The position numbers were made by a program, and so were the translations under genes. From a bacterium (lineage in GTDB: Bacteria; CG2-30-53-67): DNA of 36,364 bases. The notes below the pieces were generated by a model. The model had not been told where the DNA came from and did no database searches. It was given only the letters and a program-made list of their open reading frames with translations. The stretch lies in assembly GCA_919901565.1 (NCBI GenBank), contig CAKKPE010000081.1, forward strand, positions 1-36,364, given 5' to 3'. Below, in pieces: positions 4,291 through 22,169 of this stretch; positions within the stretch are counted from its first letter, which is position 1, and the number at the start of each line of letters is the position of its first letter.

Positions 4291-4388
4291 TGAGGCGCCG
4301 GTTCAGAATTGCCCGCCAAGAGTTTTAGTGATCCCGATTCAGAAAAATCAAGTAAATTAACATAAAAACTGTGTCAAAATAATTGTTA

Positions 4389-4631: not shown

Positions 4632-4697
4632 ATGCATCAAACCGCCGGTTTGTTTCAACAGATGGAGATGTTGAACGGGACGGCGGTTTTTTATTAA
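4632..4697 (+). other. 21-codon leader ORF overlapping a hairpin
   Basis: ATG at 4632 is preceded by a strong ribosome site (AAGGAGGAGAG, 4617-4627) and reads 21 codons to TAA at 4695-4697. The coding bases are the same bases that form the hairpin and T-run at 4639-4692, so translation could alter folding. This resembles an attenuation leader, but the peptide has no run of one amino acid that would name a signal. Confidence 0.35.
4639..4692 (+). terminator. Two-storey hairpin with T-run upstream of the protease
   Basis: The outer stem is AAACCGCC (4639-4646) with GGCGGTTT (4682-4689). The inner stem is TTCAACA/TGTTGAA around 4654-4675. A six-T run (4687-4692) follows the G+C-rich outer stem. 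The shape is that of an intrinsic terminator, yet it lies 38 bp before the protease start and in the same direction, so it may act as an attenuator. Confidence 0.6.
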
Positions 4698-4729
4698 TAG
4701 ACTGACAGTTTAGAACGGAGGAACATTCG

Positions 4730-7700
4730 ATGGTTAAGAAGGTCTTTATTTCAGTGTGGTTATTGGCGTTTTGTGTTTCGACCGTCTCCTACGGGGCGTC
4801 AGGCAGCCGATTCAAGAATGGATTGGTGAAAAGGGCAGTCCCCATGAAGCCGGCTCACACTCGGATTACCGATCATGTCTACAGGGACAAGATTGTTCTC
4901 AAATTCGTGGAGGGGTCGAAGGTGCGGCTGCGGGGGAAAGAGCTTGTGAGTTTAGGGGATGACAATCTTGAAGATGTGTATCGGGTCTTGCGCCGAGAAC
5001 CGACATTGAAAGTTAAGCGTCTCTTTTCGAGGCCAGAGGAAGAGTTAGCGCGGGACAAGAAAGAAGGACAGAGACGTTCGCGGAAGGAATTGGCTGACCT
5101 GAACCTCTATTATCTTATAGAAGTGACCTCGACGCTGGAAGACCAGGCCCTTGAAGCACTGATCGACTCTCTGAATGGTCTGGATATTGTTGAAACAGCT
5201 TATCCGGAACCTATTCCCGAGCTACCTCGTGCTGACATTCCTCCAGAAACACCCGACCTTGTGGCTTTTCAGGGTCACCTCAATCCTGCACCTCAGGGAG
5301 TTGACGCCCGATATGCCTGGAACTTCCAAGGGGGGAAGGGAGAAAATACAAAGTTTATCGACATCGAATCGGGATGGAGGATCACACATGAGGATCTGAA
5401 GGATCCTTTTTATGAGTGCAACGAGACCTATCCGCTCTATGGACATGGTACGGCCGTGCTCGGTGAAGTTGTTGCTGAATCAAATAGTTTTGGAATGACA
5501 GGCATCGCTCCTGATGCGGCATATGGGGTGTGTGACAAATTAACGGCGGATGCAGTCAATCTCGCGACAAAAGTTATAGGAGAAGGTGATGTTGTACTTA
5601 TCGAAAGACATTCCCTATTTCCTAATGGAGCAGGGATCTGTGATTCGTGTAATAATCTTAATGATCAGTGTGGCTACATTCTAGAGGAATTTTGGCAATC
5701 CAACTTTGACGCAATTCAGACAGCCACGGCCATGGGCATCATCGTTGTTGAGGCGGCCGGTAATGGCGGGGTGGACCTGGATAATGCAGTGTTTAACTTG
5801 GACCCGCAGGACCCGAATTCCGGGGCCTTTAACCGGGATTATCGCGATTCGGGGGCCATTATTGTCGGTGCAGGAAAATCCTGTGCAGATCCTTCTACTG
5901 AAACAGCTGATCCGCCGATACCCTGTGGACGTGAGCCGTGGTGCTACACATGTTATGGCAGTCGTGTGGATGTTCAGGGTTGGGGGGACAGTGTCGGAAC
6001 TTTGTGCACTGCAACAAGTGGAGCTCTTTATACGAACGGCGATCCAGACCAATGTTATGGAGACACTTTTGGCGGCACGTCAAGCGCATCACCCATTGTG
6101 GTTGGAAGCGTTCTGGCGATCCAAGGATATGTCAAACATGTTACGAGTGGCCACGTATTGACACCGCTTCAGATGCGACAACTTCTTGTTGCCACGGGCA
6201 CTCCTCAGGCAGTTTATCCAAGGCATATTGGACCGCTTCCTGACCTGAAGAGAGCGTTTGAGTTTAATACTGCGGATATGGACAATGACGGCCTCTTTGA
6301 TATGTATGAAACTGGTACGGGCACATTCGTTGAGCCAACGAATACAGGAACGGATCCTCAAGAATGGGATACAGACGGTGATGGCCTCTCCGATGGTGAG
6401 GAAGTGAACCTTTACGGTACCGATCCTTTCAGCAATGTTGACAGCGATGGAGATGCCATGTCAGATGACTGGGAGACCGTTTATGGACTCGACCCACTTT
6501 CCAATGATTCAGACCAGGATCAAGATGCGGATGGCCTTACAAATCTTCAAGAATATCTGATTCATACAAACCCGGTGAGACTCGACACAGACGGTGATGG
6601 ATTGTGGGATGGTGAAGAAATCAACCTTTATCATACCGATCCACTGAGGCATGTGGACGCGGATGTTGACGGTATGTCCGATGATTGGGAGAATGCCTAT
6701 GGGTTAGATCCGTTTTCTGATGATACGGCACAAGACTTGGATTCCGATGGGCTAACAAATATCAAAGAATACGAGATCGGGACCAAGCCCGATAGCGGGG
6801 ACAGTGATGGTGATGGGCTGTCAGATGGGGATGAGGTCAATGTTCATGGTACCGATCCTCTTGATAACACCGATACCGACGGAGACGGAATGGTCGATGA
6901 CTGGGAAGCGGTTTATGGCCTTGATCCGGATTCTGATGATTCAACAGGTGATCTGGATTCAGATGGCCTGACCAATATAGGGGAATACCAGCAGGGCACG
7001 TATCCAGACTCTCGTGACACTGACTTGGACGGTCTCCCTGATGGCGACGAGGTTTACGTCCATGGTACAAATCCGAGAGATAATACGGATACCGATGGAG
7101 ACGAAATGGTCGATGACTGGGAAACCGTATACGGTCTTGATCCGAACACGAAGAGTGAAATTGAGGACGCAGACAGAGACGGGGTCATCAATTATATTGA
7201 GTATTTGCGGGGTACCAATCCAATACTCAGAGGGTCCAAACCAATTTTGAATACACTGAATGTGGACCAAGCCAATTGCCCTGGGACAGGCAGTGATGGA
7301 ACCGCAAATAAACCATTTTGCACCATTCAACAAGGTATTGATGCGGCATTGGCAGGGGATACTGTCTTGGTGGCCTCTGGCACGTATTCTGAGTTTTATT
7401 ATAATAAGCCGATTGTTCTAGAGGGACCTGCAGATCAGAGTGTCAATTTCTCGGGGGTTTTTACATATATTTACGGTGTAAGCTGGGGAAGAATTTCTGG
7501 ATTTGATTTTAATTCATTTCTCTATTTGCCAATTACATCATGTAACAACCTGGAACTGAAAGGCAATACGTTTAGAAATAAATCTTTTCAAGGCATCTCT
7601 ATTGGTAGTTCTTCAAACATAATCCTCATGAACAATTTGATCATTAACAATGCTCAGGCCGGTCTTGACGTGAGTGGTGATTCTTCGGTGAGCATGATCA

Positions 7701-8455
7701 ATAACACCATCACAGGAAATGCTGTTGGAATAAACGTATCAGCTGGCAGCCAGGTAAGTATCAAGAATTCGATTGTTTGGGGAAATACCTCCGACCTCAT
7801 AGGGATCACTGATTCCAATTGGGTGAGCTATTCAGACATTGGAGATGGAGAGTTTTTTGGTCTTAACGGCAATATCAGTACCGACCCTCTGTTCGTTGAT
7901 TCGGGAAGCAATGACTATAATTTGCAGCCCGGGTCACCCTGCATCGGTACAGGCAAGAACGGTGTCGACATGGGGGCTTTTGGGATGCCTTGCACGGATA
8001 ATGATGGCGATAGTTATAGCATGGAAAGTGAAGATTGCGGACCTGTGGATTGCGATGACGACAATGCCTCCGTTAACCCTGTGTCGGACGAAGTCTGCGA
8101 CAACATCGACAATAATTGTGACGGACAGGTGGATGAAGGGGTTGCACACCTTTATTATCTTAACAATGATCTGGATGGGTATGGAGATCTTTCTAAACCC
8201 TGGTTTTTGCCACTGTGTCAACCATGGAATAACTACTGGGTGCTTGACCATACTGACTGCAATGACAGTAATGCATATGTCCACCCAGGCGCCACAGAAG
8301 TCTGCAACGGCATAGATGATAACTGCAACGGGTCGGCGGATGAGGGGTATGTGGCGATCCCCACCTCCTGCGGCATCGGCGCCTGCGCCTCGGCCGGACA
8401 GATGATCTGCCAGGGCGGGGCCCTCGTCAACACCTGCGTGCCCGGCTCCCTCTGA
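4730..8455 (+). CDS. Secreted subtilisin-like protease with TSP3, beta-helix and MopE-like repeats (5' part of a frameshifted gene)
   Basis: A 1241-residue protein with a Sec signal peptide (residues 1-23). A propeptide-like region runs to about 175. An S8 subtilase domain follows (about 185-510) with the triad D211 ('FIDIE'), H239 ('GHGTA') and S451 ('GGTSSASP') and the oxyanion asparagine N345 ('AAGNGG'). Residues ~515-835 hold repeats of the D.DGDGLSDG.E type, as in thrombospondin type 3 calcium-binding repeats. Residues ~845-1075 look like a right-handed beta-helix. After that come MopE-like motifs 'CDNIDNNCDGQVDEG' and 'CNGIDDNCNG'. The frame stops in a repeat where the sister copies read on, and the lost frame continues at once in frame 3, so the original protein was about 1603 residues. 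GC content looks lower than in the flanking respiratory genes, suggesting an acquired gene. Role: extracellular or surface protease; the target is unknown. Confidence 0.85.
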   Translation: MVKKVFISVWLLAFCVSTVSYGASGSRFKNGLVKRAVPMKPAHTRITDHVYRDKIVLKFVEGSKVRLRGKELVSLGDDNLEDVYRVLRREPTLKVKRLFSRPEEELARDKKEGQRRSRKELADLNLYYLIEVTSTLEDQALEALIDSLNGLDIVETAYPEPIPELPRADIPPETPDLVAFQGHLNPAPQGVDARYAWNFQGGKGENTKFIDIESGWRITHEDLKDPFYECNETYPLYGHGTAVLGEVVAESNSFGMTGIAPDAAYGVCDKLTADAVNLATKVIGEGDVVLIERHSLFPNGAGICDSCNNLNDQCGYILEEFWQSNFDAIQTATAMGIIVVEAAGNGGVDLDNAVFNLDPQDPNSGAFNRDYRDSGAIIVGAGKSCADPSTETADPPIPCGREPWCYTCYGSRVDVQGWGDSVGTLCTATSGALYTNGDPDQCYGDTFGGTSSASPIVVGSVLAIQGYVKHVTSGHVLTPLQMRQLLVATGTPQAVYPRHIGPLPDLKRAFEFNTADMDNDGLFDMYETGTGTFVEPTNTGTDPQEWDTDGDGLSDGEEVNLYGTDPFSNVDSDGDAMSDDWETVYGLDPLSNDSDQDQDADGLTNLQEYLIHTNPVRLDTDGDGLWDGEEINLYHTDPLRHVDADVDGMSDDWENAYGLDPFSDDTAQDLDSDGLTNIKEYEIGTKPDSGDSDGDGLSDGDEVNVHGTDPLDNTDTDGDGMVDDWEAVYGLDPDSDDSTGDLDSDGLTNIGEYQQGTYPDSRDTDLDGLPDGDEVYVHGTNPRDNTDTDGDEMVDDWETVYGLDPNTKSEIEDADRDGVINYIEYLRGTNPILRGSKPILNTLNVDQANCPGTGSDGTANKPFCTIQQGIDAALAGDTVLVASGTYSEFYYNKPIVLEGPADQSVNFSGVFTYIYGVSWGRISGFDFNSFLYLPITSCNNLELKGNTFRNKSFQGISIGSSSNIILMNNLIINNAQAGLDVSGDSSVSMINNTITGNAVGINVSAGSQVSIKNSIVWGNTSDLIGITDSNWVSYSDIGDGEFFGLNGNISTDPLFVDSGSNDYNLQPGSPCIGTGKNGVDMGAFGMPCTDNDGDSYSMESEDCGPVDCDDDNASVNPVSDEVCDNIDNNCDGQVDEGVAHLYYLNNDLDGYGDLSKPWFLPLCQPWNNYWVLDHTDCNDSNAYVHPGATEVCNGIDDNCNGSADEGYVAIPTSCGIGACASAGQMICQGGALVNTCVPGSL

Positions 8456-8510
8456 TACGACCTGCAATGGCATAGACGATAACTGCAACGGGTCGGCGGA
8501 TGAGGGGCAT

Positions 8511-9533
8511 GTGGCAACCCCCACCACCTGCGGTATCGGTGCCTGTGCCTCAACCGGACAGATGGTGTGCCAGAGCGGAGCCATCGTCAACACCTGCGTG
8601 GCCGGAACTCCTGCTTCCTCGGACACAACCTGCAACGGCATAGATGACAACTGCAACGGCCAGGTGGATGATGGGTATGTCGCTACCCCCACCTCCTGCG
8701 GAGTGGGGGCCTGTGCCTCGAGCGGGCAGATGGCGTGCCAGAACGGGACCATCGTCAACACCTGCGTGCCCGGCACTCCGGCTCCTTCGGATACGACCTG
8801 CAACGGCATAGACGATAACTGTAACGGCCAGGTGGATGAAGGCTGCACCGACCTTAGCCTGAGCATCACCGACAGCCCCGACCCGGTCAAGACAGGCAGT
8901 GCATTGACCTACACCGTGACGGTCACCAACATCGGACCGTCGAGTGGAACGGGTGTTGTCGCAACTAATACCTTGCCGAACGGGGTGACTGGAAACGGAA
9001 TGCCCAGCCAGGGAAGTTGCACGGGATCGGGCACGATCACTTGCGCATTGGGAAATCTTAACAACGGTCAGAACGCCGTCATCACGATTAACGCCACGCC
9101 TTCCGCCGAGGCGATATTTGATCCCACGACAAACACGACCTTAAGTGTGAATGTAAGCGCAGCTGCAACGGTCTCCGGGAATCAAACCGACCCTGTCCCT
9201 GCCAACAATTCCGCCACGGTCAGTACCACAGTACAGCTTGCCTGCCTCGGAAAAGCTGTCACCAAGCGTGGAACGAGCGGAAATGACGGGACGAGTAAGA
9301 GCCCGTTTGCGGGAGGGAGTGGAGTGGATGTGATACACACCTTAAGCGGTGCGGACTGGATCGATGGAAAGGCGGGCAATGACACAATCTGCGGTGGGGC
9401 GGGTAATGACAATATTCTCGGTAACAACGGCAACGATGCCCTTTCCGGGAGCAGTGGTACCGATGTCTGTAATGGCGGCAGCGGCACCGACACCACGGAT
9501 GGAACATGTGAGACGGTATCGAATGTTCCCTGA
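8511..9533 (+). CDS. 3' part of the frameshifted protease: MopE-like repeats, DUF11 and RTX-like repeats
   Basis: This frame continues the preceding protein. It is open upstream to about 8451, and the residues before the nominal GTG at 8511 read 'SDTTCNGIDDNCNG', matching the internal repeats. It carries further copies of a ~50-residue unit ('TSCG.GACAS.GQM.CQ.G..V.TC..GTPA.SDTTCNGIDDNCNGQVDEG'). A DUF11-type beta-sandwich follows (about residues 112-245), then glycine/aspartate-rich RTX-like calcium-binding nonapeptides ('GNDTICGGAGNDNI') near the end. There is no signal peptide of its own, so as a separate gene it would not be secreted. It is most simply the C-terminus of the protease, separated by an 8-nt deletion or a sequencing error. 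No sorting signal is visible at the C-terminus. Confidence 0.75.
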   Translation: MATPTTCGIGACASTGQMVCQSGAIVNTCVAGTPASSDTTCNGIDDNCNGQVDDGYVATPTSCGVGACASSGQMACQNGTIVNTCVPGTPAPSDTTCNGIDDNCNGQVDEGCTDLSLSITDSPDPVKTGSALTYTVTVTNIGPSSGTGVVATNTLPNGVTGNGMPSQGSCTGSGTITCALGNLNNGQNAVITINATPSAEAIFDPTTNTTLSVNVSAAATVSGNQTDPVPANNSATVSTTVQLACLGKAVTKRGTSGNDGTSKSPFAGGSGVDVIHTLSGADWIDGKAGNDTICGGAGNDNILGNNGNDALSGSSGTDVCNGGSGTDTTDGTCETVSNVP

Positions 9534-9977
9534 AGGCTTATTTATAGGCCATGAGTGAAGGATTGGAATCAGGCACCCATTTTGGCGAAGAGCGGCTGCA
9601 GCGGTCTTGTTCCCGCAAGCCGGATGGTGACGATCTCGAGTGGAAGCATGAACGGACCGGCTTGGTCTCTTTTGTCTCTGTGTCAGTTCGATCATATCGG
9701 GATGGACAACGGCTCTCGGGCCGTTGTCCTCATCCCTCTGGCGGTCGTTTCAGCCTTCCTGAACCAAACACTGAGTACGCCGGTACACACAGGCCAGGTT
9801 CCTAAAAACAATCGGTTACTTCACGTCCTCCTCATCGTGTGTATCATCGAGTATTCACTCCCCCCGGTATTTACCGGCATTTCTTACTCCCTGTTTCAGA
9901 ACCGGTGTTTTGATAACCATCGGTATTCATTTGTGATTTATCTTTTCAGCCTAAGAAAATGCATTTAGTTCTGATTA
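9534..9977. other. Non-coding spacer with one strong hairpin
   Basis: Between the protease tail and the respiratory operon no convincing gene is seen. Overlapping frames exist (for example from 9555) but lack family resemblance and have poor codon character. The one clear structure is a perfect 10-bp inverted repeat, GGACAACGGC (9704-9713) and GCCGTTGTCC (9720-9729), with a 6-nt loop. It may end transcription of the protease, though no T-run follows. Confidence 0.4.
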
Positions 9978-9994
9978 TGGCACGAACCTTGCAA
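9978..9994 (+). promoter_or_regulatory. Sigma-54 (RpoN) promoter of the respiratory operon
   Basis: TGGCACG-N4-TTGCAA: the invariant GG is at 9979-9980 and GC at 9991-9992 with exactly 10 nt between them. This fits the sigma-54 consensus completely. Transcription would start near 10004 and run into the oxidoreductase gene at 10128. It implies control by an enhancer-binding protein that is not encoded in the window. Confidence 0.75.
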
Positions 9995-10014
9995 TAAAAA
10001 GATTATAGTAAAAG

Positions 10015-10046
10015 AATCATGGAATAGTACAATCATGGAATAGTAC
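10015..10046 (+). repeat. Perfect 16-bp tandem repeat upstream of the respiratory operon
   Basis: AATCATGGAATAGTAC occurs twice back to back (10015-10030 and 10031-10046). It lies between the sigma-54 site and a second possible promoter whose -35 box begins at the next base. It could be a pair of regulator sites, or part of the leader RNA. Confidence 0.6.
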
Positions 10047-10075
10047 TTGCCTGATTCTGATATAAATGGTATATA
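10047..10075 (+). promoter_or_regulatory. Second candidate promoter (sigma-70 type) of the respiratory operon
   Basis: TTGCCT at 10047-10052, a 17-nt spacer and TATATA at 10070-10075, ending 52 bp before the ATG at 10128. It is weaker than the sigma-54 site. The tandem repeat abuts the -35 box, where an activator would sit. Confidence 0.35.
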
Positions 10076-10127
10076 GAAAGTTGTCTGATGTCTTAAATCC
10101 CGCTAATTGACTGAATCGGGAATCTCC

Positions 10128-11942
10128 ATGTCCAAAACGAAATTTCAAGTGGTCATCCCGGATTACAAGTACTGGCGGCAGAACATCAAGTGCCAGACCG
10201 GATGTCCCGTGAACACGGACTCGCGCGGTTATGTGCGGGCCATCGCATCCGGTGATTATGAAAAGGCCTACTGGATCGCACGGACCCCGAACCCCCTGGC
10301 CTCGATCTGCGGACGGGTCTGCGGCGCTCCGTGCGAGATTGCCTGCAGGCGGGGGTGGATTGATGCCGCGGTCTCCATCCGTGCGCTCAAGCGTTTCGTC
10401 ACGGAAAAGTACGGGGTGGAGGCGGTCCTGCCGCCGGGCGATTATGCCGAAAAGTTCAGGTCCATCTATAAGGAAAAGGGGGACGGCATCCATGGGATCG
10501 CCAAAAACAAAGCAGTCATCTCCATCGTGGGGTCAGGCCCCGCGGGCCTTGCCTGCGCGCATGATCTCGCCCTGATGGGATACAGGCCGGTGATCTATGA
10601 GATGGAGAGGGTCGCCGGCGGCATGTGCGCTGTGGGCATCCCCATCTACAGGCTCCCCAGGGAACTCCTCCAGGCCGAGATCGATGCGATCCAGGCGCTG
10701 GGCGCTGAGATCCGGCTCGGTGTGCAGGTGGGCAAGGATGTGGCACTCAAGAAACTCTATGACGAATCCGCGGCCGTGCTCCTGGCCGTGGGCGCCAGGC
10801 GGTCGAGGATCCTTCCGGTCGAGGGATCGGAATCCAGGGGCGTGCTCGGCGGGGTCGAATTCCTCAGGGACGTGAGTATCGGGAGTTATATCAACATCGG
10901 CCCCAGGGTTGTGGTGGTCGGAGGCGGGAACGTGGCCTACGACGTGGCCAGGACCGCGGTCCGGCAGCGGGGCGTGGATTCGGTCTCGCTCGTCTGCGTG
11001 GAGGCAAGGGAGCAGATGCTGGCGGACAAGGTGGAGATAGAGGAGGGCGAAGAGGAAGGGGTTGTGCGGCTCAACAGCTTCGGACCCCAGCGGATCAATG
11101 CCGGAGCCGGCGGGATCGTCGAATCCATGACCTTCAAGAAAGTGATCTCGGTCTTCGACAGTGAGGGGAAATTCAACCCCCGGTATGACGAGTCCGAGAC
11201 CATGACCCTTCAGACGGATACGGTCATCTTTTCGGTGGGGCAGGCCTACGACCTTTCGTTCCTCGATAAGAGCGGCCTTGAGGTGGAGAGGTCGCCGAGG
11301 GGGATGATCCAGGCGGGCGCTGACGGCATCTCCACGTCTCTTGCAAAGTTATTCGTGGCAGGAGATCTGGCCTACGGGCCGAAACTCATTATCGATGCGG
11401 TGGCTTCGGGCAAGAAGGCGGCGAGAAAAATCCATGAGATGATTGCCTCGGTCCGGCTCAAGACCGTCATGGCGGAAGATCATCTTGAGCTTGCCGGAAA
11501 TAATGTCCCTCAATATCAAAGATACGAAAAGATCCCGAGGGTTGGGGTCCCGGCTTTTGATCCGGCCGAACGGATCAGGGTCCCGGTCTCCCAGGTGGAG
11601 AAGGGGTTCGACAGGGAGCCGGCGGAAAAACAGGGAGGGCGCTGTCTGAACTGCGCGGTCAACACGATCTTCAATGGGGACCGGTGCATCCTCTGCGGAG
11701 GTTGTGCCGATGTCTGTCCGGAGTATTGCCTGAGGCTGGTGAGCCTGGAGAACATCCGGGGAGACAGCAGCCTGGAAAAACTCTACGAGATGCGGTACGG
11801 GACTGCCGTTCCACGGGGCGGGTCCGCGATCATCAAGGATGAAGAGCGGTGCATCCGGTGCGCCCTCTGTGCCAAACGGTGCCCTGTCCAGGCGATTACC
11901 ATGGAAAGGTTCGTATTCAAAGAGGAGGTGAAGTGTGAGTAA
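10128..11942 (+). CDS. GltD-like FAD/NAD(P) oxidoreductase with C-terminal 2[4Fe-4S] ferredoxin domain
   Basis: A 604-residue protein of the glutamate synthase small-subunit family. The N-terminal Fe-S region has CQTGC (C22, C26) and C61-x3-C65-x3-C69-x3-C73. An FAD Rossmann motif GSGPAG (135-140), an NAD(P) motif GGGNVA (265-270) and a second FAD contact 'AGDLAYGP' (~411-418) follow. The C-terminus adds two ferredoxin motifs, '[12 protein letters not shown]' and '[12 protein letters not shown]'. Such modules pass electrons between NAD(P)H, flavin and Fe-S centres. No GltB-like glutamate synthase lies nearby. Instead it overlaps the Rieske gene by 8 nt, so it probably works with the Rieske/cytochrome b complex as an NAD(P)-linked subunit. 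No signal peptide is seen, which places it on the cytoplasmic face. ATG 10128 is preferred over the upstream TTG at 10107. The coupling to the quinone cycle is inference. Confidence 0.85.
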
Positions 11943-12408
11943 CGGTTTCACAGGTGAAACAGAAGGAAAGACCCGGAGAGATTTCCTTGGGCTTGCATCC
12001 ATGGGTGCTTTCTTTGCCGCTATGCTCACGGCACTTGGCGGGTCGCTCCGGATGCTCAAACCCACGGTCCGTTTCGAGGAGCCGTCCGCGTTCAAGATCG
12101 GCAAGGCCGAGAACTTCCCGGCAGGGTTGGTCAAGACGCTCGATGAAAAGAACGTGGTGATTTTTTCGGATGTAGACGGGCTGCACGCCGTATCCCTGAT
12201 CTGCACCCACCTCGGGTGTGTGGTCCAGGTCAAGGAAAAAGGGTTTGCCTGCCCCTGCCACGGGTCCAAGTACGATGCCATGGGCAAGGTCATCGGCGGG
12301 CCCGCTCCCAGGCCGCTTCCGTGGTACAAGATCAGCCTCTCCATAGACGGGAGCCTTGTTGTGGACACGTCCAGCGAAATCCCGGCGGGGACCAAGTTCA
12401 GGGTGTAG
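11935..12408 (+). CDS. Rieske iron-sulfur protein of a bc/b6f-type complex
   Basis: A 157-residue protein with a twin-arginine motif ('KTRRDFLG', R14-R15) followed by a hydrophobic segment (~18-38) that acts as an uncleaved Tat anchor. The Rieske fold binds its [2Fe-2S] cluster through C90-T-H92-L-G-C95 and C106-P-C108-H109-G-S111; the two extra cysteines (C95, C108) form the usual disulfide. It moves electrons from quinol at the Qo site of cytochrome b to a periplasmic cytochrome c. It starts at GTG 11935 inside the end of the oxidoreductase gene, with GGAGG about 6 nt upstream, which suggests translational coupling. The cytochrome b gene follows within 41 bp. The length is that of short b6f-like or Gram-positive-like Rieske proteins. 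Confidence 0.93.
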
Positions 12409-12449
12409 ATATTAGTGCTTGGAATTTAACTGTGATAATGAGGGGAGAG

Positions 12450-14012
12450 ATGGAGCAGACAACGCAATCCGGCATGGGTGCTTTCGGCGCCAACCTCAGG
12501 GGCCTCTGGAGGAATCTCAAATCGTCGATGATCCGGACCGGTATCCCGGTTTCTGACCGGGACAGGGCCGAGACCATGGTCGGGAATTTTTTCCTGCACA
12601 TCCAGGGCGTCAAGGTCCACAAGAACACCCTGCGGCCGACCTACACATGGGGCCTCGGCCTGATCTCCCTATCCCTTCTGCTGATCCTGACCTTGACCGG
12701 GATCATCCTCATGGTCTATTACAATCCGGGCATCCAGAATGCCTACAACACCATCAAGGACCTCTCCTTTGTCGTGGTCCCTGGCAAGTTCATGCGGAAC
12801 ATCCACCGGTGGGCCGCTCACGGCATGGTTGCCATGGTCATGCTTCACATGGCCAGGGTTTTTTATACCGGCTCCTACAAACAGGGGAGGGAATTCAACT
12901 GGCTGGTGGGGATCACCCTTCTGGTGGTGACCTTCGCGCTCAGCCTGTCAGGGTACATGCTCCCCTGGGACCAGCTGGCCTACTGGGCGCTCGTGATCGT
13001 GGCCAATATCCTTCAGTCGCCCAAGGAGATCACCGATGCCCTCGGCATCACACCGTATTTTGATCCCGGCGGTTTCTTCAAGGAACTCTTTCTCGGCGGC
13101 CGGATCGCCGGTCAGGAGTCGCTGACCCGGGTCTACCTCCTCCATGTGATCTTCTTCCCGGTCATGGTTTTCATCCTGGCGGGGATCCATTTCTGGAGGA
13201 TACGCAAGGACGGCGGGCTCTCCAGGCCTGAGCCCGAGCCGCGGCAGCCTTCGGACCAGGGACTCGATCCCATCCCAAGCCCACCGAAAAAGGGCGGGCT
13301 CTTCCCGACCTACAAGACCTACGGCCTCATGGAACTGGTCCGGGGGAAGACGCCGTCAGTGGACAAGGACGTGGAGAACACCGTGATGAGCTGGCCGAAT
13401 CTCCTGAAAGCGGAGCTTGCGGTCTTTATGCTCTGCATGGCTGTCATGATGGTCCTCGCATACTACTTTGACGCCCCGCTCAAGGAGCACGCCAACCCCC
13501 TGATCCCCGAGAACCCGGCCAAAGCGCCATGGTATTTTCTCGGCCTTCAGGAGCTGATCTCCTATTCGGCATTCATGGGCGGGGTGGGCCTCCCCGGCAT
13601 CACCCTGTTGGGTCTTGCGCTGATTCCCTATTTGGACCGGGAACAGGACCATATCGGGGTCTGGTTCTCGAACAGGCAGGGGGTATCGGTCACTCTTCAG
13701 ACCTTCTTCCTGAGCGCGGTGGTGACCATTGGTATCCTGGCCTTTACCGTGAATTACGGGTGGTTCAGGAACTGGTGGCCTGACATCCCGCAGCTGGTGA
13801 TCACCTTTATCAATCCCGGGACCGTGCTGGTCGGGATCTTTGTGCTCTGGTCATTCTGGGTCCTGAAAAGGACCGGATCGACCCGCATGGCCGCCATCAG
13901 CCTGTTCACGTTTTTCCTGGTCTCTTACGTGATTCTGACCTATATGGGTACGGAACTCCGGGGACCGAACTGGGGATTCTACTGGAGCAAGTCGCAATGG
14001 CCCATACATTGA
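12450..14012 (+). CDS. Cytochrome b (fused b6/subunit IV type) of a quinol:cytochrome c complex
   Basis: About 520 residues with 8-9 membrane helices. Haem b ligands are H119 and H133 in helix B (14 apart) and H232 and H247 in helix D (15 apart). The extra residue in helix D is typical of cytochrome b6 rather than mitochondrial cytochrome b. The b6-like half is followed by a long, Pro-rich hydrophilic linker (~252-315) and a subunit IV-like half carrying the Qo-site motif as A-P-W-Y (359-362) in place of PEWY. It oxidises quinol at the periplasmic Qo site and reduces quinone at Qi. A longer frame upstream (to 12216) is not cytochrome b-like. ATG 12450 or 12438 is the start, with GGGGAG between them. 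It sits between the Rieske gene and the molybdoenzyme genes. Confidence 0.92.
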   Translation: MEQTTQSGMGAFGANLRGLWRNLKSSMIRTGIPVSDRDRAETMVGNFFLHIQGVKVHKNTLRPTYTWGLGLISLSLLLILTLTGIILMVYYNPGIQNAYNTIKDLSFVVVPGKFMRNIHRWAAHGMVAMVMLHMARVFYTGSYKQGREFNWLVGITLLVVTFALSLSGYMLPWDQLAYWALVIVANILQSPKEITDALGITPYFDPGGFFKELFLGGRIAGQESLTRVYLLHVIFFPVMVFILAGIHFWRIRKDGGLSRPEPEPRQPSDQGLDPIPSPPKKGGLFPTYKTYGLMELVRGKTPSVDKDVENTVMSWPNLLKAELAVFMLCMAVMMVLAYYFDAPLKEHANPLIPENPAKAPWYFLGLQELISYSAFMGGVGLPGITLLGLALIPYLDREQDHIGVWFSNRQGVSVTLQTFFLSAVVTIGILAFTVNYGWFRNWWPDIPQLVITFINPGTVLVGIFVLWSFWVLKRTGSTRMAAISLFTFFLVSYVILTYMGTELRGPNWGFYWSKSQWPIH

Positions 14013-14220: not shown

Positions 14221-17200
14221 ATGGAAAACAAGAGATCTGAGGTCACAAGACGGAATTTTCTGAAAGCGGCTGCCGGGACCGGGGTATTGCTGGTTGGGGC
14301 CGATGCGCATGCCCTGTTCAAGTTCCTGAAGCCCTTTGACGATGTGAACCCTCTGGCTGAATATCCGGACAAGGACTGGGAGAGGGTCTACAGGAACATC
14401 TACCAGGAAGACAGCAACTTCCATTTCCTCTGCGCGCCGAATGATACGCATAACTGCCTGCTCAAGGCGCATGTCAAGAATGGTGTGGTTACGAGGATCA
14501 GCCCTTCCTACCGGTATGGGGAAGCCACGGACCTCTATGGCAACAAGGCCTCCCATCGGTGGGATCCCCGTGTCTGCCAGAAAGGGCTGGGTCTGGTACG
14601 GAGAATTTACGGTGACCGCCGGGTCAAAGGGGTCATGGTCAGGAAGGGGTTCAAGGATTGGGTGGACGCCGGATTCCCAAGGGACAATATCACCGGAAAA
14701 CCGCCGGAAAAATATTTCAAACGAGGCGAGGACAAGTGGCTGAAAGCCGAGTGGGATGAAGCCTATGACATGGCAGCGAAGGCCCTTTATAACATCGCCT
14801 CGACCTATTCCGGCGACAGGGGCGGCAAGTACCTGCTCAAGCAGGGGTATGATCCGGCCATGGTGGAGGCCACCCACGGGGCCGGGACGCAGACCCTCAA
14901 GTTCCGGGGCGGGATGGCCTTCCTGGGCGCGATCCGGATCTTCGGATACTACCGGTTTGCAAACATGCTCGGCCTGCTCGACGCAGATATCCGCAAGGTC
15001 CCCGAGGATAAGGCCATTGGCGCCCGCGGGTGGGACAGCTATTCATGGCATACGGACCTTCCGCCCGGCCACCCCATGGTCACGGGTATGCAGACCAACG
15101 AGTTCGAACTCTTTGCCGTGGAACGGTCCAAACTGATCCTGGTCTGGGGCATGAACTGGATTACCACCAAGATGCCGGATTCGCACTGGCTGACCGAGGC
15201 CAGACTCAAGGGTTCCAAGGTCGTGTGCATCACCGTGGAGTATCCGGCCACGGCGGCCCGTTCGGATGAGGTGATCGTGATCCGGCCCGGGACCGACCCG
15301 GCCCTGGCCCTGAGCGCGGCCCAGGTCATCATTCAGGAGAAACTCTACGATGCGGAAAATGTGAAGCGGAACACGGACCTGCCGTTCCTGGTGCGGAGCG
15401 ATACCCTGCAGTTCCTCAGGCCCGAAGAGTTGATTGCCGGTTATACAAAGAAAATTCCGAAAAGGAACACGCAGATCCTGAAAAAAGATGCAAAGCCTTC
15501 TCCCACACGGGAACACGGGGACCAGCTCATCCCGGAAGAGATGCTTGAGGAATGGGGGGATTACCTGGTCTGGGACAACAAGACATCCGCTCCGGCGGCT
15601 GTGGGGCGGGATGACTACGGGGACCGTTTCAACGTCAACCCGGCGCTGGAAGGGGAGTATGAGGTGGCCACCCTGGACGGGAAGAAGGTGCAGGTGCGGC
15701 CGGTCTTCGATCTCATGAAGGAATACATCAACGGGAATTTCACTCCTGAACAGACATCCCGGGTCACCTGGGCGCCCAAGGATGCGATCATCGCCCTGGC
15801 CCGGCAGATCGCCGCCAACAAAAAGCAGACGCTCTTTGCCACGGGCATGGGTACCAACCAGTACTTCAACAGCGACCTGAAAGACCGGGCCATCTTTTTC
15901 CTCGCGGCGCTGACCGACAATATCGGACACTTCGGAGGCAACGTGGGGAGCTATGCCGGCAATTACCGCGCGGCCATCTTCGGAGGCATGGGGACCTACA
16001 TGGGAGAGAATCCCTTTGACGCGGAGCTCGATCCCGGGAAAAAGGTAAGGACCAAAAAATATTCGAAATACGAGTCCGCCCATTATTTCAATTACGGCGA
16101 CAGGCCTCTACGTGTCGGCGGGCATCTCTTTACAGGCAAGACCCATATGAACACCCCCTCCAAGTGCATGATGGTCAATAACTCCAACTCCCTGATCGGA
16201 AACGCCAAAGGGCACTACGACGTGGTCTTCAATACCCTCAAGGGATTCGAGATGATCACCGTCGCGGACTACTGGTGGACGGCCTCGTGCGAGTATGCGG
16301 ACATCGTCTGGGGCTGCGACTCTCCCGCGGAATTCAAGCAGCTCGATTTCACGGCCTCCTGCACCAACCCGTTTGTCCAGGTCTACCCGAGGACCCCGCT
16401 TCCCAGGATCTTCGATACCAGGCCCGACGTCGAGATCCTTTCCGGGGTGGCCCACTCGCTGGCCAAGGTCACAAAAGACAAACGGTTCGATGATTACTGG
16501 AAGTTCGTGCACGACGACCAGGTGAACGTCTATGCCCAGAGGATCATCGACGAGTCCGCCAATCTGGTCGGCTACACCATCGGGCAGCTGGAGGAGAACG
16601 CCAAGAAAGGGATCCCTGCGCTGATCAACTGCAGAACCTACCCGCGTATCTCGAGCTATGAGCAGGTCCAGGAAGGGAAGCCTTACTACACCAAGTCAGG
16701 GAGGCTCGAATTCTACCGGTACGAGAAGGAATGGGTCGAGCATGGCGAGAACATGATCGTCTACCGCGAACCCATTGATTCCACGATCCATGAGCCCAAT
16801 GTGATTGTTGGAAATAAACACATTGCGATCCGTCCGATGAAACCCGAGGACTGGGGATTCTCGTCGAGCGACCTATATACCGAGACCCGGCAGGTGCGTA
16901 ATGTGCAGCTGACCGTGGAGGAACTGCTCAAGACCAAGCATCCTCTGACCAAAAAGCAAGGGTTCCGGTTCATCATGCACACGCCCAAGTACCGGCACGG
17001 CGCACATACCACGCCTGCGGATACGGACATCGTTGCGGTATGGTTCGGGCCATTCGGCGATGTCTATCGAAGGGACAAGCGGACCCCCTTCGTCATGGAG
17101 ATGTACCTGGATATCAATCCCCTGGATGCCAGGGAGCTGGGCGTGGAAGACGGGGACTACATCTACATCGATGCCGACCCCGCTGATCGTCCATACAAGG

Positions 17201-17685
17201 GATGGAAGGAAGGGGAGTACACCTACAAGGTGGCCAGGCTCCTCTGCAGGGCGAGATACTATCCCGGGACGCCGAGGGGGGTCACCAGGATGTGGCACAA
17301 CAACTACTGCGCCACCCTCGGAAGCGTCAAGGGTCACGAAACCCGGGAAGACGGCCTGGCCAAGAACCCCGATACCAATTACCAGGCCATGTTCCGGTAC
17401 GGGAGCCACCAGAGCACGACCCGGGCCTGGCTGCGCCCCACGCTCATGACCGACTCCCTGGTACACAAGGACATGTTCGGGCAGACCATCGGCAAGGGGT
17501 TTGCGCCGGACATACACTGCACCAACGGTGCTCCCCGAGAGGGTTTTGTAAAAATCACCAAGGCCGAGGACGGCGGGATCGGCGGGAAAGGCCCGTGGAG
17601 GCCCGCGGCCAACCATATCCGGCCTACCCACGAGGATGAGAAGATGAAGGACTTTATGAGCGGGAAATATATCAGGATTGTTTAA
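14221..17685 (+). CDS. nxrA: Molybdopterin oxidoreductase alpha subunit, nitrite oxidoreductase/nitrate reductase-like (NXR clade)
   Basis: A 1154-residue type II DMSO reductase family catalytic subunit. A Tat signal ('VTRRNFLK', R10-R11, cleavage after ~A31) places it in the periplasm. The Fe-S site reads C71-x3-D75-x3-C79 ... C119. The Asp replaces the third-position Cys of NarG and the first ligand is Cys rather than His, a pattern I recall from Nitrospira NxrA. The Mo ligand is D279 in 'HTDLPPGHP'. Long stretches ('[21 protein letters not shown]', '[25 protein letters not shown]') resemble Nitrospira NxrA from memory. It should interconvert nitrite and nitrate; reversal as a periplasmic nitrate reductase is equally possible, and other oxyanions cannot be excluded. 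A GGAG site precedes the ATG. Partners beta, gamma and chaperone follow. Confidence 0.88.
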
Positions 17686-17939: not shown

Positions 17940-19070
17940 ATGCGCAAAGTCTACAACTGGCAGATCGGGAGGAACGCTTCGTACATCTATCCGGAGAACA
18001 GACCCAAGAAACAGTGGGCCATCATCTTTGATCTCAATAAGTGCATCTCCTGCCAGACCTGCTCCCTGGCCTGCAAAACGACCTGGACGTCGGGCAAAGG
18101 CCAGGAATATATGTTCTGGAACAACGTGGAGTCCAAACCCTATGGCGGCTACCCCATCGGATGGGACCTCGGCATCCTGTCCAAACTCGGGCCCCAGGAA
18201 TGGAAAGGGAACAAGTATACAGGCAAGACCCTGTTCGAGGCGGCCGATAAGGACGAGAAGATCCTGTACCACCTGCCCGAAGATGCCGACTGGGCCCATC
18301 CGAATCTCGGGGAAGACGAGGCCTCCGGCATGATCAACCAGGGGGACTGGATAGCGACCTATCCCCACAGGATCTGGATGTTTTATCTGCCGAGGACCTG
18401 CGCGCACTGCACGTATCCGGCTTGTCTCTCCGCGTGCCCGAGAAAGGCCATCTACAAGAGAGAGGAAGACGGCATTGTCCTGATCGACCAGTCGCGCTGC
18501 CGCGGCTACAGGGAGTGCGTCCGGGCCTGCCCGTACAAGAAGTCCATGTTTAATGTCGAGACCAGGGTGAGCGAGAAGTGCATCGGGTGCTATCCCAAGA
18601 TTGAAAAAGGGGAGATGACGCAGTGCGTAACCAACTGCATCGGGAAGATCCGGATCAACGGGTTTGTCAGCACACCGGACAATGCCAGGAAAGACAATCC
18701 CATGGATTACCTGATCCATTACAAGAAGATTGCTCTTCCTTACTATCCTCAGTTCGGGCTGGAGCCCAACCTTTATTACATACCTCCCATCCACGTTGCT
18801 CCATCGTTCCTGGAGCAGATGTTCGGCCCGAAGGTGGAGAAAGCCATGGGGACTTACATAAATGCAAGGAACGATCACGAACTTCAGGCGCTTCTTGTAC
18901 TCATCGGGAGCACGGAGAAGATCCTGCACACGTTCAAGGTGGATGAAGAATACGCCTACGGTTACGATGAGCAAGGGAAAGAGGTCGTAAAGGTCCCGAT
19001 CACCGAACCCAAGATTATCAGGGACTATCATGACGCGAAGCTCAATGCATACAGACAGAATACACCATAA
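17940..19070 (+). CDS. nxrB: Four-cluster iron-sulfur beta subunit of the NXR-like enzyme
   Basis: A 376-residue NarH/NxrB-type electron transfer subunit. Cysteine groups: C35/C38/C41/C45; C154/C157/C162/C166; C187-x2-Y190-x2-C193-x3-C197; and C214/C217/C229/C233. In the third group an aromatic residue (Y190) stands where a fourth Cys would be, as W does in NarH, so this cluster is expected to be [3Fe-4S]; the others are [4Fe-4S]. The protein carries electrons between the alpha Fe-S centre and the haem-bearing gamma subunit or cytochrome c. It has no signal peptide and is expected to be co-exported with the Tat-tagged alpha subunit. AAGGAG lies ~12 nt upstream of ATG 17940. The length is near that of type II beta subunits such as NxrB. 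Confidence 0.9.
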   Translation: MRKVYNWQIGRNASYIYPENRPKKQWAIIFDLNKCISCQTCSLACKTTWTSGKGQEYMFWNNVESKPYGGYPIGWDLGILSKLGPQEWKGNKYTGKTLFEAADKDEKILYHLPEDADWAHPNLGEDEASGMINQGDWIATYPHRIWMFYLPRTCAHCTYPACLSACPRKAIYKREEDGIVLIDQSRCRGYRECVRACPYKKSMFNVETRVSEKCIGCYPKIEKGEMTQCVTNCIGKIRINGFVSTPDNARKDNPMDYLIHYKKIALPYYPQFGLEPNLYYIPPIHVAPSFLEQMFGPKVEKAMGTYINARNDHELQALLVLIGSTEKILHTFKVDEEYAYGYDEQGKEVVKVPITEPKIIRDYHDAKLNAYRQNTP

Positions 19071-19115
19071 ATAATTTTATTATTTCTTAATAAAATTATA
19101 TTGGAGGGGAACGCC

Positions 19116-19985
19116 ATGAGAGCCAAAAGTTTTTTGTTTATTCTTGCATGCTTTATATTCGCCGGTACGGTTTATGCCGGGGAAACTCCCTTTTCGGAGT
19201 TCACGTCCTACCAGAAGGCGGTCGACGTGCAGCAGATCGGACTGAATGACCCGGTCTGGGATACAGTGATTCCTGTCAGGCACCCCCTCCAGCGGCAGTT
19301 TCTGGTTCTTCCCAAACCGGCGGAGGTGGGCGTCAAGGAGGTTTTCTTCCAGTCGGTCCATGACGGGAAATACATCGCCTTCCGGCTTACCTGGAAGGAC
19401 AGCACCAGGAACGACTCGATCAACGTCGTGAATTTCTCGGATGCTGCTGCGCTCGAATTTCCGGTCCGGAGGGACCCTCTCCCCAAATACTTCATGGGAG
19501 AGGAGGGGAAACCCGTGCATGTCATCTACTGGAAGGCATGGAGAAGCAAGGACCAGGATCAAGGTTTTCAGACCGTCAAGACCGCATATCCGAACATGAC
19601 CAGCGATATCTATACATTCGACTACAGTGTGAAAGGGAAAGGCACGGACAAGACGCAGCAGGAGAAGGAGATCTTCATCCCGGGAAGGGCCGCAAATAAC
19701 CCCCTCTCCTTCCCGCACAAGGAGATCGTCGAGGAGCTTTCCGCTGAAGGGCCGGGGACGCTCACGTCAAAAAATATCGAGAACACAAGGGGTGTTGCAG
19801 AATGGAAGAATGGAACATGGACAGTCCTCTTTGTCCGGCCTCTTGCCGTTAATGATGCTTCAAGTGTGCAGTTCAGGATCGGAGAAAAGATGCCTCTGGC
19901 CATTGCCGTCTGGGAAGGAGGCCATCTGGAGGTTGGAGGCCGCAAGGCGGTGAGCCCATCCTGGGCCGAAGTCAAGGTGGAGTAG
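19116..19985 (+). CDS. Haem b-binding gamma-like subunit (ethylbenzene dehydrogenase gamma/NxrC family)
   Basis: A 289-residue protein with a clear Sec signal peptide (residues 1-21, ending 'GTVYA'). The mature part is a beta-rich domain resembling the gamma subunits of periplasmic type II DMSO reductases (EbdC, DdhC, SerC, and candidates for NxrC), which bind one haem b through Met and Lys ligands. 'YFMGEEGKPVHVIYWKAW' (about residues 126-143) is the sort of region where the Met ligand lies; assigning ligands needs alignment. ATG 19116 is preferred to an in-frame TTG at 19101 because GGAGG (19103-19107) sits at the right distance and the signal peptide follows. It would take electrons from beta and pass them to a cytochrome c or the Rieske/cytochrome b complex. 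It lies 45 bp after beta and 3 bp before the chaperone gene. Confidence 0.75.
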   Translation: MRAKSFLFILACFIFAGTVYAGETPFSEFTSYQKAVDVQQIGLNDPVWDTVIPVRHPLQRQFLVLPKPAEVGVKEVFFQSVHDGKYIAFRLTWKDSTRNDSINVVNFSDAAALEFPVRRDPLPKYFMGEEGKPVHVIYWKAWRSKDQDQGFQTVKTAYPNMTSDIYTFDYSVKGKGTDKTQQEKEIFIPGRAANNPLSFPHKEIVEELSAEGPGTLTSKNIENTRGVAEWKNGTWTVLFVRPLAVNDASSVQFRIGEKMPLAIAVWEGGHLEVGGRKAVSPSWAEVKVE

Positions 19986-19988
19986 ACC

Positions 19989-20690
19989 ATGGAAAATATT
20001 ATTTATCTCTACAAGATGATGTCCCTGGGGTTTGCCTATCCCGACGAGAACGGATGGAAGTTCCTCGAAGAGTTTCTTCCGAAGTCGGACCTCATTTTCA
20101 AGGGCGCTCTTCCCAGGAAACTCGGGGAACTGAGGGAATATTTCATTACGCACAGGCCTTCCCTGGAAGAGATGCAGATGGAATATCTTTCTTTTTTCGA
20201 CATGGGGGCAAAGGTTATCCCTTACGAGACCGAATACGTTCAGGAAAAAATATCCAGGAAGCCCCGCCTTCTGGCTGACATAGCCGGTTTTTACAAGGCA
20301 TTCGGATTCGAGGCGGCCAGTGATGCGAAGAACAGGGAGTCCATCGATCATATCTCTGTGGAGCTTGAATTCATGGTTCTCCTTTACATGAAGATGCTTC
20401 AGGCCATGGAACAGGGGTTTGAAGACAGGGTGCAGGTTGTCGAGGATGCAATCAGGAAATTCCTGGAAGACCATCTTGCCGGCTGGGGCTTCCTCTATTG
20501 CAGTCTGATACAGGAATCGGATGGCCATGAGTTCTATAAAAAACTGGCCGGACTTTTAAGAGCGTTTCTGCAGGATGAGCTGACAAAATACGGAATGGAC
20601 CCCGGTCCCTTACAGCGTGGTCTCTTCAACCCATGCCAGGGAAGCACAGGGTGGGAAGACTTTACCTGCGGGCCAGTGCCGCCGTTATAA
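19989..20690 (+). CDS. TorD/NarJ-family chaperone for the molybdoenzyme
   Basis: A 233-residue, almost wholly helical, soluble protein. The pattern 'LYKMMSLGFAYPDE' near the start, 'LEEMQMEYLSFFDMG.KVIPYETEY' near residues 60-80 and 'DHISVELEFMVLLYMKMLQA' near 120-140 match TorD/DmsD/NarJ chaperones. These bind the Tat leader and apo-catalytic subunit and hold it until the molybdenum cofactor is inserted. The position, 3 bp after the gamma gene and in the same operon as a Tat-tagged alpha subunit, is typical. A conserved Cys-containing tail ('NPCQGSTGWEDFTCG') is unusual and might bind metal or form a disulfide. ATG 19989 overlaps closely with the end of the upstream gene, suggesting translational coupling. 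Confidence 0.85.
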   Translation: MENIIYLYKMMSLGFAYPDENGWKFLEEFLPKSDLIFKGALPRKLGELREYFITHRPSLEEMQMEYLSFFDMGAKVIPYETEYVQEKISRKPRLLADIAGFYKAFGFEAASDAKNRESIDHISVELEFMVLLYMKMLQAMEQGFEDRVQVVEDAIRKFLEDHLAGWGFLYCSLIQESDGHEFYKKLAGLLRAFLQDELTKYGMDPGPLQRGLFNPCQGSTGWEDFTCGPVPPL

Positions 20691-20729
20691 AGAACTCCGA
20701 ATTCTAATGTCCAATAGGTGAGGGAGAAA

Positions 20730-22169
20730 ATGTACAATCGACTCTATTCATGGTTGCTGCTGATATCCAGCGTGGTCTTTGTGGTCTATTCGGTGCAGGC
20801 GATCTATACGGACAATATCTCCCCGGAATGGATGCGTTACCAGGAAAAATACAAGAAGCTGGTCATCAAGAGGGCGTCGGATGAAAAGACGCGTGAACTG
20901 GCGAAGGAATTCAAGATAGACATTCAGCAGGTCTATCTGGCCGATTTGAACAAAGTGGACCGCTGCATGAGCTGTCATATCGGCATAGACAATGAAATGG
21001 TGTCCGATGTGGACCAGCCGATCCGGAGCCACAGCGGAGATTACCTGAAGAACCATCCGCCGGACAGGTTCGGGTGCACCATCTGTCACCACGGCCAGGG
21101 CCGCGCCATAGATATCAGGAATGCGCACGGCATCGGCCACGAGACGCACTGGGACCAGCCGATCCTTCCGACCGAATACATGCAGAGCGCCTGCCCGTCC
21201 TGCCACAACATGGGCTGGCTCTCAAAAAACGGAGGGGAGAAGATAGCGAAGGGGGAAGCCATATTCAAAAAAAGGGGCTGCCTGGGGTGTCATAAGATGC
21301 AGGGCCGCGGCGGGATCCTGGGTAAAAAGCTGGACGGTGTGGGCTCGCAGCCCATTGCCTACTTCCCCATGGCCCATGTGCGGGGAGAGAGGACCGTTTA
21401 TGCCTGGATGAAGCAGCACTTTGACGATCCGAGGAACATCGTGCCGCAGAGTGAAATGATAGCGGACCTGACCGATGAGGAGTCCATCCTCCTGACCACG
21501 TATGTGCTATCCCTGCGGAGCGAAGAAATTCCAAGAGATTATAGACATCATGACGAGTCTGGTTATGCACCGGAAGAGCCGGGAGACCCAGGCGAATCCA
21601 TGTACAATCTTTACTGCGTCGGGTGCCATGGCACCGGCAAAGACAGCGTCTATGACGAGGTCTTCAAGAGAACTATCCCTGCGATCCAGAACCCGCCTTT
21701 CCTGGCTGCGGTCAGCGACAAGTATCTCCATACCGTAATTTCCGAGGGGAGGAGCGGTACCCCGATGACGTCATGGAAGGAGGCCGCAGCCGGATTGAAA
21801 CCTGAAGAAATTGACGCCATCATCAGGTATATCACCCGGGACAGGCCTGCGGCCGGACCGAAGCCCTTTGAGTTCGCAAAATACCAGGGGAATGCGAAAC
21901 GGGGAGAGGAGATCTTCAACATCCGGTGTGTGGACTGCCACGGCAAGGGAGGGGAGGGCGGTGTCGGTCTGAACCTGAGAAATCCGGTGGTCCAGAAGTA
22001 TGCCGACCCGGAGTTTCTGGCCATTACCCTCAGGGACGGGAGGGTCGGGACGCACATGGTTTCCTTTGGTTCACAGGGCATGGGCCTGAACGATCAGGAT
22101 ATCGTGGATGTGATCACTTATGTGAAGACGTTATCCGGCAAACAAATTCCTTACCCTTTAGCCCCTTGA
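20730..22169 (+). CDS. Membrane-anchored hexahaem cytochrome c
   Basis: A 479-residue protein with an N-terminal hydrophobic anchor (about residues 7-26) and six CxxCH sites: C79-H83, C116-H120, C155-H159, C184-H188, C296-H300 and C400-H404. The last three sit in separate class I-like domains with possible Met ligands (M243, M346 and one in 'GTHMVSFG' near 442). The first three are in a distinct N-terminal domain. It lies at the end of the operon, where cytochrome c1 or f would be expected for a Rieske/cytochrome b complex, and no such gene is present here. It is therefore the likely electron link between the b-type complex and the molybdoenzyme or a terminal oxidase. ATG 20730 with GAGGGAG just upstream is chosen over GTG 20718. 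Confidence 0.88.
   Translation: MYNRLYSWLLLISSVVFVVYSVQAIYTDNISPEWMRYQEKYKKLVIKRASDEKTRELAKEFKIDIQQVYLADLNKVDRCMSCHIGIDNEMVSDVDQPIRSHSGDYLKNHPPDRFGCTICHHGQGRAIDIRNAHGIGHETHWDQPILPTEYMQSACPSCHNMGWLSKNGGEKIAKGEAIFKKRGCLGCHKMQGRGGILGKKLDGVGSQPIAYFPMAHVRGERTVYAWMKQHFDDPRNIVPQSEMIADLTDEESILLTTYVLSLRSEEIPRDYRHHDESGYAPEEPGDPGESMYNLYCVGCHGTGKDSVYDEVFKRTIPAIQNPPFLAAVSDKYLHTVISEGRSGTPMTSWKEAAAGLKPEEIDAIIRYITRDRPAAGPKPFEFAKYQGNAKRGEEIFNIRCVDCHGKGGEGGVGLNLRNPVVQKYADPEFLAITLRDGRVGTHMVSFGSQGMGLNDQDIVDVITYVKTLSGKQIPYPLAP

Follow-up and report, generated by a model that had tools for sequence, protein, structure and literature searches.

Does an aspartate at the first iron-sulfur cluster (FS0) make a molybdenum enzyme a nitrite oxidoreductase (NXR), or can a nitrate reductase (NAR) carry it as well, and from where would such an enzyme draw its electrons? 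These questions are raised by a DNA stretch of 36,364 nucleotides from a bacterium of the GTDB lineage CG2-30-53-67 (contig CAKKPE010000081.1 of assembly GCA_919901565.1; the whole stretch is called the window hereafter), which encodes an NxrA/NarG-like alpha subunit. A preliminary description had read a Cys-Asp-Cys-Cys ligand set from this protein and had concluded that the Asp, together with a twin-arginine translocation (Tat) leader and the molybdenum ligand D279, places the enzyme near periplasmic NXR of the Nitrospira type. The reading that we favor instead, with a probability of about three in four, is that of a periplasmic nitrate reductase (pNar) fed by menaquinol through a Rieske/cytochrome b complex, with the genes between 10107 and 22169 forming one respiratory unit.

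Metal ligands of the alpha subunit

The alpha open reading frame (ORF) is unbroken in translation and encodes an intact protein of the type II dimethyl sulfoxide reductase family. It aligns end to end (phmmer, E 2.6e-284) with NXR-A of Kuenenia stuttgartiensis, the protein of crystal structure 7b04, and is 58.5% identical to the Methanoperedens nitroreducens sequence (locus L097), 40.9% to 7b04 and 29% to a Haloferax NarG. The features of the gene that matter here are the following:

14221-17685, forward strand: catalytic alpha subunit, NxrA/NarG-like, of the molybdenum bis(molybdopterin guanine dinucleotide) (Mo-bisMGD) type; 1154 amino acids, Tat motif TRRNFL at residue 9; assigned by phmmer and Foldseek
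14431-14457, forward strand: FS0 motif C71-A-P-N74-D75-T-H77-N-C79, from the alignment with 7b04; the D75 codon is 14443-14445
14575-14577, forward strand: C119, the fourth FS0 ligand by aligned columns
15040-15069, forward strand: Mo-ligand stretch Y274-SWHT-D279-LPPG283, Nar-like; the Kuenenia-side NXR rows read [HR]GDQAPG

The motif that had been described, C71-x3-D75-x3-C79...C119, is present in the translation, and its CxPNDTHxC stretch is in register with 7b04 in the phmmer alignment, with no misalignment of D75 seen. The four residues occupy the columns of C67, D71, C75 and C115, the FS0-binding residues of the crystal structure (PMC8387239), and N74 matches Asn70 of 7b04, the residue proposed to coordinate the substrate. 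The histidine next to D75, H77, is equally invariant (25/25 rows), so the choice of D75 as the predicted FS0 ligand rests on homology to 7b04. An AlphaFold2 model of the alpha subunit, built from a 25-row alignment, reached a mean predicted local distance difference test (pLDDT) value of 77 and a predicted template modelling score of 0.83, and a Foldseek search with it returned the 7b04 chains as top matches (template modelling score 0.88-0.92), with PcrA next after NXR. Its pLDDT is about 61 at residues 71-80, 59 at 111-120 and <50 at 274-293, and with values this low at the ligand loops the ligand geometry cannot be judged from the model.

The contrast that had been drawn with NarG also held: E. 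coli NarG has His-Cys-Cys-Cys at the aligned FS0 columns, as do Thermus NarG, a Haloferax NarG and ClrA. We assessed these columns in an alignment of 107 rows that comprised the window's alpha subunit, 80 named loci (those kept of 559 relatives from one scan of genome contigs), genome-contig loci, plasmid outgroups and 959 residues of 7b04, in which one gene is counted twice (L013 and L104). C-D-C-C is found in 102/107 rows from many phyla; therefore, the motif is not due to chance, and the Asp marks a whole superclade that includes nitrate reducers such as Methanoperedens. Consistent with this, it has been reported that FS0 is ligated, according to lineage, by Cys3Asp or Cys3His in NXRs and NARs alike (PMC8387239). 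An Asp ligand of FS0 is thus already published for the superclade, and the enzyme, most likely a periplasmic nitrate reductase, is of a known type; the Asp is an inherited feature of the NXR/pNar superclade that presumably sets the FS0 potential. The earlier caution that the direction of catalysis cannot be read from the Asp ligand is upheld. The enzyme of Methanoperedens, an organism shown to reduce nitrate, has this ligand too.

The rows without C-D-C-C read H-C-C-C (L020 and L022), C-C-C-C (L018, an alpha subunit at 2998-6192 of a Halobaculum plasmid) or N-C-C-C (L021, at 2899-5445 of an Alisedimentitalea plasmid, adjoining a chlorite dismutase-family gene), or have an out-of-frame N-terminus (L017). 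The last is an unannotated, 48% identical alpha subunit at 9800-13407 of a Natronococcus occultus plasmid, with beta and TorD annotated alongside; a frameshift interrupts it beyond the first part of the FS0 motif, and its N-terminal piece, read separately, gives CTPNDTHNC.

These columns also bear on the substrate. The family includes ClrA, PcrA and SerA-type enzymes, and PcrA follows NXR among the structural matches, which would fit an enzyme whose main substrate is another oxyanion (chlorate, perchlorate or selenate) and for which nitrate is secondary. We consider this very improbable: the Asn74 column is kept in 106/107 rows (one gap) while ClrA has Gly, and a chlorite dismutase, as present in the ClrA and L021 loci, was not noticed in the window.

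The molybdenum ligand itself does not discriminate. D279 is at its column in 107/107 rows, outgroups included, and we dropped it as evidence for an NXR placement for this reason. Its surroundings are more telling: T278 and L280 are found in 84/84 rows of the sister clade (below) and 2/2 intermediate rows, and G and Q in 17/17 Kuenenia-side rows, a narrow sample in which 13 rows are from one genome phylum or duplicates within it (L013 = L104). The window's protein reads HTDLPPG and lacks the [HR]GDQAPG marker of those 17/17 clade rows. TDL vs. GDQ around the Mo ligand separates the two clades in 103/103 rows (84 sister, 2 intermediate, 17 Kuenenia side), but clade is not equal to direction, as Nitrotoga shows. 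Two loci (L117, genome G062, and L118, genome G061) have C-D-C-C and HTDLPPG and branch apart from both the Kuenenia-side and the sister clades.

Placement among nitrite oxidoreductases and nitrate reductases

In both a quick tree of 62 rows and a more careful one of 30 rows, the window's alpha subunit pairs with L024, from a metagenome-assembled genome (MAG) titled Nitrospirae bacterium, followed by Bdellovibrionota and Myxococcota MAGs. The enclosing clade holds Methanoperedens, Thioalkalivibrio, Thioploca and others, with support of 100 in the 62-row tree and 100/100 in the 30-row tree, and K. stuttgartiensis and the NXR-like rows form a separate supported clade. Forcing the window's protein and L024 into the Kuenenia-type clade was rejected (approximately unbiased test, p-AU 3.99e-06). 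The protein remains within the NXR/Nar clade, and the aligned columns place D75 at a ligand position, as had been proposed. The step from these features to a neighborhood of Nitrospira-type NXR is not supported: both trees and the p-AU value speak against it, the Asp is superclade-wide and D279 is universal, so neither residue is specific to that type.

It is important to note that trees and alignment hold no named Nitrotoga, Hydrogenobacter, Nitrospira or Methylomirabilis rows, and that the SerA and PcrA ligand columns are not included in them. In the literature, Nitrotoga NXR and the periplasmic NAR of Hydrogenobacter thermophilus form a sister clade of the Nitrospira/Nitrospina/anammox NXR (PMC6050957), and the Methanoperedens enzymes, linked to nitrate-coupled methane oxidation, are termed NxrA-like and called cytoplasmic (PMC7327174); another source predicts the Methanoperedens enzyme in the pseudoperiplasm (PMC4683180). 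Through Methanoperedens, we infer that the clade of the window's protein is this published sister clade (PMC6050957, PMC7327174), and we would call the enzyme an NXR-sister-clade periplasmic nitrate reductase in preference to a Nitrospira-type NXR. The enzyme is like the Methanoperedens Nar in clade, Cys3Asp FS0, HTDLPPG, Tat leader, soluble heme-b gamma subunit and TorD. With K. stuttgartiensis NXR-ABC (7b04) it shares the C-D-C-C set, the Asn, the Mo-Asp, the Met/Lys heme b of gamma and the fold, but Kuenenia/Nitrospira/Nitrospina/anammox NXR form a separate clade with HGDQAPG in place of HTDLPPG and about 41% identity (7b04).

If the enzyme were mainly a nitrite oxidoreductase, with electrons moving from nitrite to the six-heme cytochrome encoded next to it (below) and then, as in Nitrotoga, to a terminal oxidase, this would account for the Cys3Asp FS0, the Tat leader and the soluble heme-b gamma subunit, all as in NXR, and Nitrotoga NXR is in the same sister clade (PMC6050957). 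We regard this as quite unlikely, given the position outside the Kuenenia-type clade and the different Mo-ligand stretch, and the gene content of the neighborhood and of the host genome, described next, weighs in the same direction.

The gene cluster and its electron module

The alpha gene lies in the following cluster, all on one strand in the order GltD-like, Rieske, cytochrome b, alpha, beta, gamma, TorD and six-heme cytochrome c:

10107-11942, forward strand: GltD-like FAD/NAD(P) and Fe-S flavoprotein; no leader or transmembrane stretch found, predicted on the cytoplasmic side
11935-12408, forward strand: Rieske [2Fe-2S] protein; Tat-type leader, CTHLGC...CPCHGS
12399-14012, forward strand: cytochrome b, b6 and subunit IV in a single chain; 8 transmembrane-like stretches, two His pairs; start codon not fixed
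17940-19070, forward strand: beta subunit; 15 Cys, which fits three [4Fe-4S] and one [3Fe-4S] cluster
19101-19985, forward strand: gamma subunit, ethylbenzene-dehydrogenase-type heme b protein (EB_dh, PF09459); one N-terminal signal-like hydrophobic stretch
19989-20690, forward strand: TorD/NarJ-family assembly chaperone, by domain match
20718-22169, forward strand: membrane-anchored six-heme cytochrome c; 6 CxxCH, one N-terminal transmembrane-like stretch; homologue in genome G005, of the same family as the host

The 15 Cys of beta are nearly all invariant across 84 rows. In gamma, whose true start is likely the Met codon at 19116, Met132 (70/71 rows) and Lys282 (69/71 rows) are the likely heme ligands, and Met/Lys ligation is reported for the gamma subunit of 7b04 (PMC8387239). 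The Tat leader that had been described is there, as a twin-arginine motif in TRRNFL, and an enzyme on the export side of the membrane, as had been claimed, is supported. E. coli NarGHI is like the window's enzyme in Mo-Asp, beta Fe-S chain and overall fold, but has His at FS0, a cytoplasmic location and a NarI anchor vs. Asp, export and an EB_dh-type gamma here; that is, the enzyme departs from NarGHI both in FS0, which is not H-C-C-C, and in gamma (PF09459, not NarI-type).

Among the 80 named loci, beta was detected in 75, gamma in 70 and TorD in 60, and GltD, Rieske and cytochrome b genes stand together beside alpha in 19, from several phyla. Another 35 loci with at least 8 kb of upstream sequence lack the full module, and the remaining 26 have less upstream sequence. 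The cytochrome c gene precedes alpha in 18/19 module loci, and only L024 shares the window's arrangement of the cassette between cytochrome b and cytochrome c. The genome G005 has a homologous module (L136, 153-11436; GltD 70, Rieske 57, cytochrome b 67 and cytochrome c 53% identity), followed by two further c-type cytochromes, NosZ (TIGR04244, 820 bits vs. a cut-off of 625) and a NosR-like protein divided between two genes; an alpha subunit was not found in this genome. Since the module stands by NosZ there and by a nitrate/nitrite enzyme here, the simplest reading is that it supplies periplasmic reductases with electrons, which also argues against nitrite oxidation. The pairing of module and enzyme was not found described in the literature searched, which is weak evidence of absence.

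Alternatively, the Rieske/cytochrome b/GltD genes might encode an ordinary, separate respiratory complex, neighboring the enzyme by chance, with the enzyme taking electrons from another donor. The 35 loci that carry the enzyme without the full module would be expected under this alternative, as would a second copy of the module in the window's own genome (L135, 13263-19614 of contig C14), which has a nine-heme cytochrome c and two histidine kinase genes downstream. The placement of the alpha-beta-gamma-TorD cassette between the module's cytochrome b and cytochrome c, also in L024, and the pairing kept in 19/80 loci across phyla make it rather unlikely; it concerns the donor, not the direction, and overlaps with the explanation that we favor.

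Known systems offer partial precedents. The Haloferax-type pNar shares the gene order Rieske-cytochrome b-alpha-beta-gamma-TorD but its FS0 is H-C-C-C, its alpha subunit is 29% identical, and none of the features shown there is a GltD-like gene. In Methanoperedens, HCO-II and NapH-like genes belong to the nar cluster as described (PMC4683180), and the window's cassette is instead nested in the Rieske/cytochrome b/GltD/hexaheme module. Similar in make-up are the Kuenenia complexes Kustd1480-1485 and Kuste4569-4574, which also combine Rieske, b-cytochrome, multiheme c and a cytoplasmic NAD(P) oxidoreductase-like flavoprotein (PMC12954380); the likeness of the GltD-like protein to the latter is one of domain make-up, not of direct sequence comparison. 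They differ in a split b6 and subunit IV, vs. a single chain with 8 transmembrane-like stretches here, and in an HAO-like octaheme cytochrome, vs. a nitrate reductase as the module's partner.

Both Kuenenia Rieske/cytochrome b complexes have been proposed to bifurcate quinol electrons to NAD(P)H (PMC12954380), and the window's cluster could likewise be one electron-bifurcating nitrate respiration complex that splits menaquinol electrons two ways. One electron would go uphill from cytochrome b to the GltD-like flavoprotein and NAD(P)H, and the other downhill from Rieske via the six-heme cytochrome to the Cys3Asp nitrate reductase, where it would reach nitrate. If so, a sulfur oxidizer could obtain NAD(P)H with no need for a separate reverse electron transport. 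Module and enzyme are paired in 19/80 loci across phyla, and a homologous module accompanies nitrous oxide (N2O) reductase in the relative, which would fit this scheme; we nonetheless consider it unlikely.

Two further observations concern the surroundings of the cluster. GC content is 0.53-0.60 in the cluster vs. 0.47-0.58 elsewhere in the window, and a foreign-DNA island was rejected as none is clear. Upstream, an ORF at 4730-8455 (subtilase/TSP3/beta-helix/MopE) and one in a different frame at 8511-9533 (MopE/DUF11/RTX), whose repeat extends back over the gap between them, are probably one large surface protein gene (4730-9533) split by a frameshift, real or assembly-made.

Proposed electron path, host genome and meaning

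The FS0 ligand and Mo residues, the clade, the order of the genes, the conserved gamma ligands and the NosZ-adjacent module of the relative are observed; quinol type, order of electron flow, substrate, direction and membership of one complex we infer from them in the following scheme. Menaquinol would be oxidized by the Rieske/cytochrome b complex, and electrons would pass to the membrane-anchored six-heme cytochrome c, the Met/Lys-ligated heme b of the periplasmic gamma subunit, the Fe-S chain of beta, the Cys3Asp FS0 and the Mo held by D279, where nitrate would be reduced to nitrite. We favor periplasmic nitrate reduction because of the clade shared with Methanoperedens (L097) and the Nar-like Mo stretch, and because the window's own genome lacks intact COX1-type oxidase, NosZ and NrfA but has dsrAB, dsrEFH and dsrMKJOP. 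A quinol feed via Rieske/cytochrome b is favored by the 19/80 loci that pair module and alpha and by parallels in Haloferax, Methanoperedens and Campylobacter jejuni: haloarchaeal nitrate reduction is reported to be inhibited by antimycin A, and the Nar of Methanoperedens, which couples methane oxidation to nitrate reduction, is proposed to be fed through Rieske/cytochrome b (PMC4683180); C. jejuni periplasmic nitrate reduction requires the bc complex (PMC6195509). The Caldithrix nap locus also contains Rieske and cytochrome b genes (PMC5317091).

As for the host, NosZ was not found in its genome, nor was NrfA (control positive in E. coli), and instead of an intact heme-copper oxidase only one 139-amino-acid COX1-like ORF was found, which argues against nitrite oxidation. 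On contig C90 (L137, L138), some 23 kb separate two NIR_SIR gene pairs, of which one scores above the cut-offs as dsrA and dsrB (the second was not scanned further); near dsrAB lie dsrEFH and dsrMKJOP genes (DsrM itself was not scanned), and a GltD-like gene adjoins dsrB. The dsrEFH genes are typical of sulfur oxidizers. DsrD was not found in the genome, which shows little as no control genome was positive. The gene set is of the reverse dissimilatory sulfite reductase (rDsr) type, with the nitrate reductase probably serving sulfur oxidation, and this, too, speaks against nitrite oxidation.

Several points weigh against the reading we favor. The nitrite oxidizer Ca. Nitrotoga is in the same sister clade, so the clade is no proof of reduction (PMC6050957); 35/54 loci with the module or at least 8 kb of upstream sequence have no full module, that is, the enzyme is not everywhere dependent on it; the absences in the host genome are weak because its assembly consists of 160 contigs; an enzyme that would consume nitrite was not identified, with NrfA absent, the named NIR_SIR pair dsr-type, and NirS and NirK not searched for; and a search for FNR-like sites gave 3 matches vs. 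1.62 expected, none by the operon.

The alpha subunit was found in 1/8 genomes of the host's phylum in the collection searched, while other named phyla contain proteins with 60-70% identity to it, a pattern that suggests transfer or widespread loss. For annotation, our results mean that surveys assigning nxrA by overall similarity or by the Asp can mistake nitrate reducers for nitrite oxidizers, since this residue does not tell them apart. For the organism, a host with rDsr-type sulfur genes would use nitrate as electron acceptor. More broadly, the enzyme sits inside a Rieske/cytochrome b/NAD(P)-oxidoreductase module of a kind also found with N2O reductase, which suggests that periplasmic respiration of nitrogen oxides can draw on an exchangeable unit for energy conservation.

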